64,000 bases of DNA, from positions 1 to 64,000 of the forward strand of contig NZ_SCHL01000010.1 in NCBI RefSeq assembly GCF_004099695.1, read 5' to 3'. Every line of letters starts with the position of its first letter. The stretch's first letter is position 1. This stretch comes from Methanosarcina sp. MSH10X1. GTDB lineage: Archaea; Halobacteriota; Methanosarcinia; Methanosarcinales; Methanosarcinaceae. The position numbers and the translations under genes were made by a program. Shown piece by piece: positions 54,362 through 56,457 of the stretch. The notes under the pieces are model-generated. The model worked only from the letters and a program-made list of their open reading frames with translations, made no database searches and had not been told where the DNA came from.

Positions 54362-54490
54362 TTATTCCTTTTTTCCGGACTTGTTTTTCCCCGTTTGATT
54401 TCTCTGGAAGGTTTGCTTATACTCCCTATAAAGTTCAAACTGCTCATAATAAAGGGCTCTTTCGATTATCTCCTCAAAAAACTCATTCAT
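54362..54490 (-). CDS. 42-residue microprotein, YYEQFE family member 1
   Basis: Reads MNEFFEEIIERALYYEQFEL, then YREYKQTFQRNQTGKNK and SGKKE. A GGGGG eight bases upstream decides the ATG at 54490 over an in-frame ATG at 54568. It is a predicted amphipathic helix with a basic, disordered tail. The ERAxYYEQFExYR core is shared with the microprotein at 54858-54995, so both are real genes. No function is known. Confidence 0.75.
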   Translation of the reverse strand: MNEFFEEIIERALYYEQFELYREYKQTFQRNQTGKNKSGKKE

Positions 54491-54857
54491 ATGGATTCCC
54501 CCTGACCCACATGATATTTCTTTCTCATACCTATAAATGTTTGCCGTTGTGCCGGCAGACCTTCCCAAAAATAGTTATAACATGTCAACCTCTAAACTTA
54601 TCCTGTGGAATTGAGGCAGGACTTTCAGGCTGAAATGGAACCGGTTGAAAGCGAGTTTCTCTCCGCCTTTTATCTGCTGGATATTCTCCTGTACTGCCGA
54701 TTTTTTTCTGACCTTCCTTAAAGCTTACTTTTAAATTACTTTTTGTTGAAACTCACTTCCCAACGTTCCAGTTCTTTAGAGACTTTGCAGCATTTTAATT
54801 TACAGCTTTTACTATGTGAATCAAACTACCCTCGGGCTGGGGGTTAATAAATCAATC
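54491..54857. other. Gap between the two microprotein genes
   Basis: About 370 bases; it includes the leader and probably the promoter of member 1. A GC-richer block at about 54600-54700 has no recognisable structure. Confidence 0.45.
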
Positions 54858-54995
54858 TCATATACTTATTGCCTGAGCCTTTAATCTAAGTGCAGGCAAG
54901 TCTTCAAAATACTCCGAAGGGTATATGTTCCTGTAACTTTCAAACTGCTCATAATACTGCGCACGTTCGACAAGACCTTTGAATATTTCCTCCAT
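54858..54995 (-). CDS. 45-residue microprotein, YYEQFE family member 2
   Basis: Reads MEEIFKGLVERAQYYEQFES, then YRNIYPSEYFEDLPALR and LKAQAISI. GAGGTG precedes the ATG at 54995. The first 22 residues align without gaps to member 1 (ERA-YYEQFE-YR identical positions), while the tails differ: acidic/hydrophobic here, basic there. A tandem pair with one conserved helix suggests a dimerising or partner-binding element. Confidence 0.75.
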   Translation of the reverse strand: MEEIFKGLVERAQYYEQFESYRNIYPSEYFEDLPALRLKAQAISI

Positions 54996-55248
54996 TATAT
55001 TACACCTCTATTTCCAAAACTACTTTAGTATTTATTAACCTCAGCCTAGCAAGGTGAAAGTATTTTTAAAGGATTCCGGGCAAAGATTTCCGGATTATAT
55101 GGCTACTGAGACTGAAAGCCTATTTTAAACATTTATAAAAAAATAGAATATAACGAAGAAAAATATTAAAAGGAGAATTAAGATAAGATAAGTTTTAAAA
55201 GGAGAAGAGTTAGACAGAACAAGTTTTTAAAGGCAGCCAGGATAATTA

Positions 55249-56457
55249 CTACTGCTCTTTTGCGGCAGCTGCGAGCTTCTCTCCAAGCTTCTGGCATCTC
55301 ACCAGTTCTTTTCCATATGGCCTGTACTTTACCTGAAGTCCGGGCTCAAATACTTCAATTCCTGCGTTTTTCAGTTCCTGCTCTATTATTTTTACCGCTC
55401 CTCCTCCCCAGCCGTAAGACCCGAATGCCATAGCTTTTTTCTTCCGGGGACGTAAGCCTTTAAGATATACCAGGAAGTCGCCGACCGTTGGAAAAAGCCC
55501 ATTATTAAGGGTCGGCGAACCTACAGCAAAGGCAGCTGCATCAAGTAGCTCCTTCATGATATGGCTCCTCGGGTTCTTCCGGAGATTAAGCAGTTTTACC
55601 TCCACACCGGCGACCCGGACAGCTTCGGCAATTTCGTTTGCCATTATTTCTGTGCTGCCCCACATAGTATCATATATCACAAGCACTTTTTCCTTAACCT
55701 CACCGTTTGCCCATGATCTGTAAGCCTCAAGGATCTTCGGCAGGTCCTGCTTCCATATAATCCCATGAGAAGGAGCTATCTGCAGGGGTTCTATTTCCAG
55801 TCTGGCCAGTACTCCTAGATATCGAAGAAGAGGTATATGAAAAGGCATGAGAATGTTTGAATAGTATTCGGCTGCTTCAGGGAGAATATCTCTTACCTCG
55901 AAATCATACCTTTTTGAGGTTGCTATATGCTGCCCGAAACCGTCGTTTGAGAAGAGAATCCTGTCTTCTTTCAGAAAAGTCTCCATACTGTCAGGCCAGT
56001 GCAGCATTGTAGCTTCCAGGAACATGAGGGTTTTCCCACCCAGATCCAGCTGGTCGCCAGTTGCTACAATCCCAATGTCCCAATTCTCACTGCCCGAGTC
56101 CCTAAAATAACCATTAAGAATATCGATTCCCCTTCTTGTAATGAGAATCTTCGCGTTTGTTTGGTTTTTAAGGTCGGCCAGAGATCCGGAGTGGTCAGGC
56201 TCCATATGGTTTATTATGATATAGTCAAGTTTTGAGGGATCGATGATCTGACCGATGCGCCTTAGCATCTCCCCTGTAAAAGGAGCCTTTACCGTATCTA
56301 TAAGAGCTGTCTTTTCCCCTATAACAAGGTAGGAATTATAGGTTGTTCCTCCAGGGGTAGTAAACCCATGAAAATCCCTGCCATTCCAGTCTATTGCTCC
56401 TACCCAGTAAACTCCGCGGGAGAGTTCGACGACTCCACCTGTTTCTTCCGCATCCAT
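55249..56457 (-). CDS. fprA: F420H2 oxidase (flavodiiron protein)
   Basis: 402 residues. The metallo-beta-lactamase-like domain shows the diiron ligands in HMEPDHSGS (about 83-91), the EATMLHWPDS segment near 150 and SHGIIW near 230. The flavodoxin domain begins at VLVIYDTMWGSTE (about 260). In methanogens FprA reduces O2 to water with F420H2, protecting oxygen-sensitive enzymes. It ends a minus-strand cluster with a ferritin-like protein (23 nt upstream), AfpA and Isf. Confidence 0.93.
   Translation of the reverse strand: MDAEETGGVVELSRGVYWVGAIDWNGRDFHGFTTPGGTTYNSYLVIGEKTALIDTVKAPFTGEMLRRIGQIIDPSKLDYIIINHMEPDHSGSLADLKNQTNAKILITRRGIDILNGYFRDSGSENWDIGIVATGDQLDLGGKTLMFLEATMLHWPDSMETFLKEDRILFSNDGFGQHIATSKRYDFEVRDILPEAAEYYSNILMPFHIPLLRYLGVLARLEIEPLQIAPSHGIIWKQDLPKILEAYRSWANGEVKEKVLVIYDTMWGSTEIMANEIAEAVRVAGVEVKLLNLRKNPRSHIMKELLDAAAFAVGSPTLNNGLFPTVGDFLVYLKGLRPRKKKAMAFGSYGWGGGAVKIIEQELKNAGIEVFEPGLQVKYRPYGKELVRCQKLGEKLAAAAKEQ

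Follow-up and report, generated by a model that had tools for sequence, protein, structure and literature searches.

A predicted single-helix microprotein of the Methanosarcinaceae and the promoter element it shares with DNA-repair genes

The window analysed here, a stretch of 64,000 nucleotides from Methanosarcina sp. MSH10X1, carries two short minus-strand genes, A and B. The best overall explanation of the data, to which we assign a probability of roughly 0.6, is that B encodes a single-helix microprotein of a new euryarchaeal DNA-repair/damage regulon. The decisive clue is a 20-bp promoter element with an ACTTTC core that B shares with DNA-repair genes. This element went unnoticed in the original prediction.

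The microprotein family

The two open reading frames are present as originally described. Microprotein A (42 aa; MNEFFEEIIERALYYEQFELYREYKQTFQRNQTGKNKSGKKE) occupies positions 54362–54490 of the minus strand and microprotein B (45 aa; MEEIFKGLVERAQYYEQFESYRNIYPSEYFEDLPALRLKAQAISI) positions 54858–54995 of the same strand. The predicted common core and divergent tails were likewise recovered: residues 1–22 align with 14 of 22 positions identical (64%; pairwise E 3e-8), and the sequences diverge beyond, A ending in a basic tail. Cysteine is absent from both proteins, and the core of each contains several phenylalanines and tyrosines. A good ribosome binding site had been assigned to both genes. 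B has a strong Shine-Dalgarno sequence, GAGGTG (55003–55008, minus strand), which extends to GAGGTGA in most relatives; that of A, GGGGGA (54497–54502, minus strand), is weaker, yet conserved in A orthologs.

An initial search covered 60 related genomes, in which B was readily found within the genus. Orthologs of B with the same start and core, 37–47 aa in length, occur in 29 of 31 Methanosarcina genomes; that of M. mazei starts MEEIFKGLVERAQYYEQFESFRN. Using a profile built on 16 family members, we detected the family in 107 of 112 Methanosarcinaceae genomes, including 85 of the 86 of high quality. The search for the core in other genomes, proposed with the original prediction, thus returned matches in all 14 genera of the Methanosarcinaceae rather than none elsewhere, and the named records include Methanosarcina, Methanolobus, Methanococcoides, Methanohalobium, Methanomethylovorans and Methanimicrococcus, among others. 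Within Methanosarcina, the B core (codons 2–22) has a pN/pS of 0.067, compared with 0.5–0.6 for the tail, and variation among the orthologs is concentrated at third codon positions. These values indicate that the B core is under strong purifying selection.

The reading frame of most other genera stops directly past the core, yielding proteins of 24–28 aa such as MDDFFTELVNRARYYEQFEEFVRAHK. The tails are therefore additions of Methanosarcina and a few other genera. They had been considered part of the interest of the two proteins; since the protein ends after the core elsewhere, they are dispensable. In Methanimicrococcus the core sits inside a protein of about 76 aa, and contig L088 encodes two cores in tandem.

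Remote members were found in four other families of the phylum, here termed f7, f34, f9 and f2. Genomes of f7, f34 and f9 matched the first profile with E values of 7.5e-6 to 5e-3; the higher scores that these families reach are partly circular, because their sequences were added to the profile. Family f2, which contributed no seed, yields E values of 0.003–0.02 only, but the matches fall at one position in several genomes, and five genomes of one genus share the same 41-residue frame. Nearly all remote members begin at a methionine and most are preceded by the ACTTTC element, about 60–72 nt upstream. Their membership is thus independently supported by position and promoter element.

Neither A nor B matched Pfam or NCBIfam, and PHROGs returned chance-level scores only (E 0.017 or weaker). 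The string YYEQFE was not found printed in the literature searched. The claim of a new family with a YYEQFE core stands against these resources, and neither the microprotein family nor the regulon was found described in the literature and databases searched. Matches to solved structures (acetolactate synthase, PLC-gamma SH2) had E values of 0.2–0.5 and were dismissed as chance.

The notion that both reading frames are real genes fares differently for the two. It is upheld for B by its presence in 29 of 31 genomes and its core pN/pS of 0.067; A is found in only some Methanosarcina genomes, and premature stop codons interrupt it in at least three of these. Both A and a third variant (MEEYFEYLVERAQYYE...) have a TATA box and Shine-Dalgarno sequence of their own, without the ACTTTC element. 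Judged from these comparisons, the family is real, B is its ancestral member and A a younger, diverged paralog that has left the regulon and is a pseudogene in some genomes. The proposed pair thus consists of paralogs, as predicted, but of unequal standing: the ancestral B is nearly universal, and A is confined to a subset.

A promoter element shared with DNA-repair genes

The promoter element of B (ATACTTTCACCTTGCTAGGC; consensus ATACTTTCACCNNGCTTGGC) lies at positions 55044–55063 on the minus strand and is followed by the TATA box TTAATA at 55033–55038, that is, at positions 25–31 from the element start, as at other sites. No other match with up to three mismatches was found in the window. 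The upstream regions of B from different genera read AATACTTTCACCCCGCTTGGC, then a TATA box (TTAATATA), then GAGGTGA. In nearly all B-type genes the 20-bp element has a constant spacing to the TATA box that follows it and lies 64–67 nt before the start codon, and in three other families the distance to the start is about 60–72 nt.

Searching with ATACTTTCACCNNGCTTGGC and allowing up to two mismatches yielded 370 sites in 112 genomes, many of them from related genomes and hence not independent, versus 7 for the reversed pattern. The element is present in 106 of the 112 genomes with about three copies per genome (range 1 to ~20). To see which genes follow it, 122 sites were fetched by sequence alone and the first downstream gene was taken, most known microprotein sites being deliberately left out. 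ACTTTC, at element positions 2–7, is near-invariant (98–100% of the 122 sites), and a TATA-like box occurs at the fixed spacing in 105 of them, even though the search pattern did not include TATA.

The genes downstream of these sites encode the microprotein (24 sites), a radical-SAM protein of the rSAM_link_UDG type (15, scoring under that model's cut-off), the single-strand-binding protein RPA (12), Hef nuclease (9), RadA (8), RecQ (4) and a tyrosine recombinase (4), as well as RmuC (two sequences from one genome), a MutS-like protein and, in genus g4, DinD/BRO proteins, a YhcG nuclease and transposon genes. About fifteen sites precede a structured small RNA. Hef, RPA, RecQ, RadA and DinD score above curated NCBIfam cut-offs, and RmuC and YhcG are Pfam matches. 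With a TATA-anchored pattern, the window's own genome gave B and RPA at zero mismatches, DNA polymerase IV (DinB-type) at one and radA at two, where a single two-mismatch match is near noise in any one genome; of seven Methanosarcina genomes that were compared, most have an RPA site and most have a radA site. Microprotein and RPA genes are likewise both preceded by the element in family f2, which belongs to the same order.

Since the operator is common to a recombinase, a single-strand-binding protein, fork-remodelling helicases, a translesion polymerase and DinD, we read this gene set as a DNA-repair/damage regulon, to which the microprotein, on the evidence of its promoter, very likely belongs. 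No damage-response promoter motif in methanogens was found in the literature searched.

Several further occurrences of the element were observed. Genomes of one genus, g4, carry 6–20 sites each, and four of them 11–20; these copies precede genes for DinD/BRO proteins, a YhcG-type nuclease, PDDEXK proteins and transposons, which looks as though mobile elements had been recruited into the regulon. Several Methanosarcina genomes have a second copy of the B promoter region in front of a glyoxalase-family gene (L213/L348 at G025:C1:4022445, L339 at G014:C1:134941, and L352), and the copies inspected are without a microprotein reading frame. Small CxxC-containing proteins of Methanosarcina (MFIKAHCPVCGTDLY...) have a similar element, TTACTTTCA...GCTT...TTATATA, in front at eight loci. 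Finally, the f7 version of the element precedes an 87-aa protein of unassigned family at two loci (MLQDL[AV]EVDELI...).

Control of the regulon and possible action of the protein

In the Sulfolobales, the damage-response element ANTTTC is bound by the Orc1-like regulator Orc1-2 (PMC9738581). The ACTTTC core upstream of the TATA box fits this hexamer, although ANTTTC is short and permissive as a match. An Orc1/Cdc6-type protein is, because of this match, our first candidate for the regulator, which would turn the regulon on upon DNA damage. In family f7, four loci have the remote microprotein gene in divergent orientation to orc1/cdc6, marking the latter as a candidate regulator; this is a lead, not proof. 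The target genes themselves suggest that the regulon is probably induced by DNA damage. Like the Orc1-2 regulon, the set described here has a hexamer consistent with ANTTTC in the promoters of a small number of damage-related genes. Unlike it, the element is longer (20 bp) with a fixed spacing to the TATA box, and the targets in Halobacteriota are RadA, RPA, Hef, RecQ, Pol IV and the microprotein.

Because the set includes replication proteins such as RPA, the element could instead be coupled to growth or the cell cycle and serve replication and recombination genes, with the microprotein as an accessory peptide of replication or the cell cycle. RPA, among the most widespread targets, has a housekeeping function in replication, radA is needed constitutively, and the divergence of the microprotein gene from orc1/cdc6 in f7 would also suit such a role. 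However, Hef, RecQ, RmuC, DinD, the MutS-like protein, the UDG-linked radical-SAM protein and DNA polymerase IV point to repair, not replication, and the core fits the Sulfolobus damage-response hexamer. We therefore regard growth-coupled control as the less likely reading, albeit one with a real chance of being correct.

Under the damage-regulon reading, the microprotein would be made together with the recombination machinery, from its own promoter. AlphaFold2 predicts B as one helix comprising the core (residues 3–22; block pLDDT 83–84), followed by a disordered variable tail (residues 23–45; pLDDT 48–58). The Eisenberg moment showed no significant amphipathicity of the core helix, and for this reason we describe a helix and not an amphipathic helix. 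The conserved core positions F5, L8, R11, A12, Y14/Y15 and F18 suggest a binding helix. This conserved face would dock on one partner and tune it, analogous to small damage-induced bacterial proteins. The likeliest partner would be a recombination or replication-fork component (RadA, RPA, Hef or RecQ), an assignment that we make tentatively.

The FxxA motif binds RadA/Rad51, as in BRC repeats and the polymerization motif. The pattern [VILF]xRAxxY of the microprotein core has FxxA-type spacing, including an aromatic residue three positions further on, with V or I usual at its first position; RadA of the same organisms reads FETGDTV or similar. As the organisms' own motif (FETG) differs, mimicry of the RadA FxxA motif by the core is kept as a weak idea.

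The small SOS proteins of bacteria (DinI, SidA, YneA, TisB) are similarly very small and co-regulated with recombination and repair genes. They differ in belonging to another domain of life and in their control by LexA, which euryarchaea, to our knowledge, lack; no sequence similarity to them is known. As the SOS regulons of several bacteria include very small division-inhibitor peptides, the microprotein, likewise tiny and under common control with recombination genes, might be a damage-induced inhibitor of cell division, in functional analogy to SidA or YneA of bacteria. A partner in cell division is unlikely, and this specific role more so. SidA and TisB are membrane peptides, whereas no transmembrane segment of this type was found in the microprotein, whose core carries K, R, E and D along the predicted soluble helix (residues 3–22). 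Moreover, no link to ftsZ or sepF was seen among the neighbours or the element-bearing genes.

Transcript, neighbourhood and known small proteins

Outside Methanosarcina, the 3' untranslated region of the microprotein gene contains a hairpin directly 3' of the stop codon, with the loop CCTCC..ATCCC..GTTTGCTTT. Across 19 sequences, each of the five core pairs is supported by compensatory changes, and pairing is nowhere disrupted. The hairpin has been lost in Methanosarcina. A conserved, structured small RNA with the same ACTTTC element occurs in several genera, about 40–160 nt past the element at fifteen loci; it comprises a core (GATGRACACACGCCTTTACAAGTTTCAAGGCTAGGTGCCATC) followed by CATCCCCTC, and neither it nor the promoter region had a match in Rfam.

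The microprotein mRNA may thus have an added RNA function and be a dual-function transcript. A stronger version would rank the transcript above the peptide, as a dual-function RNA that base-pairs with Shine-Dalgarno sequences through the C-rich CCTCC...ATCCC loop of its 3' hairpin. The covarying hairpin outside Methanosarcina and the small RNA under the same element, which also ends in CATCCCCTC, are in line with this version, as are the dual-function RNAs reported in M. mazei (PMC11456600). However, the protein core is under strong selection at the amino-acid level, Methanosarcina itself has lost the hairpin, and the hairpin may partly be a terminator. This makes an RNA as the main product improbable.

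The gene upstream of B in Methanosarcina, 253 nt away and in the same orientation, is fprA; in the window it encodes a flavodiiron protein, an FprA-like F420H2 oxidase with ODP beta-lactamase-like and flavodoxin domains (55249–56457, minus strand). The surroundings in the window are rich in flavoproteins. A and B could accordingly be assigned to an oxygen-detoxification cluster (FprA, a rubrerythrin-like protein and flavoproteins) and modulate FprA or the response to oxygen stress, and an oxygen-responsive small protein, MtrI, which modulates the Mtr complex, is known in Methanosarcina (PMC12774963). Against this, fprA is reduced to fragments in several Methanosarcina genomes where B is intact, the genes around the microprotein differ between genera, and the promoter of B is its own and common to repair genes. 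We reject an oxygen-cluster partner because fprA decays while B stays and because the neighbourhood is absent in other genera, and consider such a role highly improbable. The fprA-like gene upstream of B appears fragmentary at eight loci (L004, L006, L007, L009, L011, L014, L015 and L026), and the remnants suggest repeated loss of this oxygen-detoxification gene in Methanosarcina.

B is an autonomous gene with its own promoter. Methanohalobium has five copies, in which a unit of about 270 bp (promoter, reading frame and 3' end) was duplicated without its neighbours. A leader-peptide function was discarded, since in the window no same-strand gene follows, and in many cases the neighbouring gene is convergent. 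A Roadblock/LC7 protein was discarded as a partner; its gene is downstream in two genomes and does not recur elsewhere. That A and B are chance or decaying reading frames, as their shortness, their lack of annotation and the broken copies of A might suggest, is refuted for B by a start, core, Shine-Dalgarno sequence and promoter kept in 107 of 112 genomes and by the third-position bias of its variation, while A could still be dispensable.

The M. mazei small proteins MtrI (MM_2401, 68 aa), MtrR (49 aa), sP26 (23 aa) and sP36 (61 aa) are, like B, stand-alone and formerly unannotated, and they act by binding a larger protein, sP26 binding glutamine synthetase. Their features do not fit A or B. 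MtrI has an N-terminal four-cysteine zinc ribbon and a cysteine axial ligand to cobalt (PMC12774963), which cannot be reconciled with the cysteine-free A and B. MtrR, the sORF16 protein of 49 aa, has no aromatic residues (PMC13370731), as opposed to the several F and Y in the cores of A and B. sP26 and sP36 are set apart from B orthologs (37–47 aa) by length, and the identity of B with sP26 is unlikely. A Ribo-seq study of M. mazei reported 314 unannotated sORFs (PMC11456600), and the B ortholog may be among them.

Little is understood of how euryarchaea control a DNA-damage response; the archaeal element and regulator described so far are those of the Sulfolobales. An operator that is rare, sharply defined and common to radA, RPA, hef, recQ, Pol IV and a near-universal microprotein makes this question directly testable in the genetically tractable Methanosarcina. 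We consider it possible, at somewhat less than even odds, that the Halobacteriota including the Methanosarcinaceae have an SOS-like regulon whose ACTTTC operator is related to that of Sulfolobus, which would point to an ancient damage response in archaea. The member retained most widely would be the microprotein of some 25 residues, acting as a regulator of recombination or the cell cycle, and a structured small RNA and an mRNA with a conserved 3' hairpin would stand under the same operator. The microprotein described here would be a small member of a DNA-repair/damage regulon, in a clade for which no regulon of this kind had been defined, and would rank among the smallest conserved archaeal proteins with a regulon-based function assignment.
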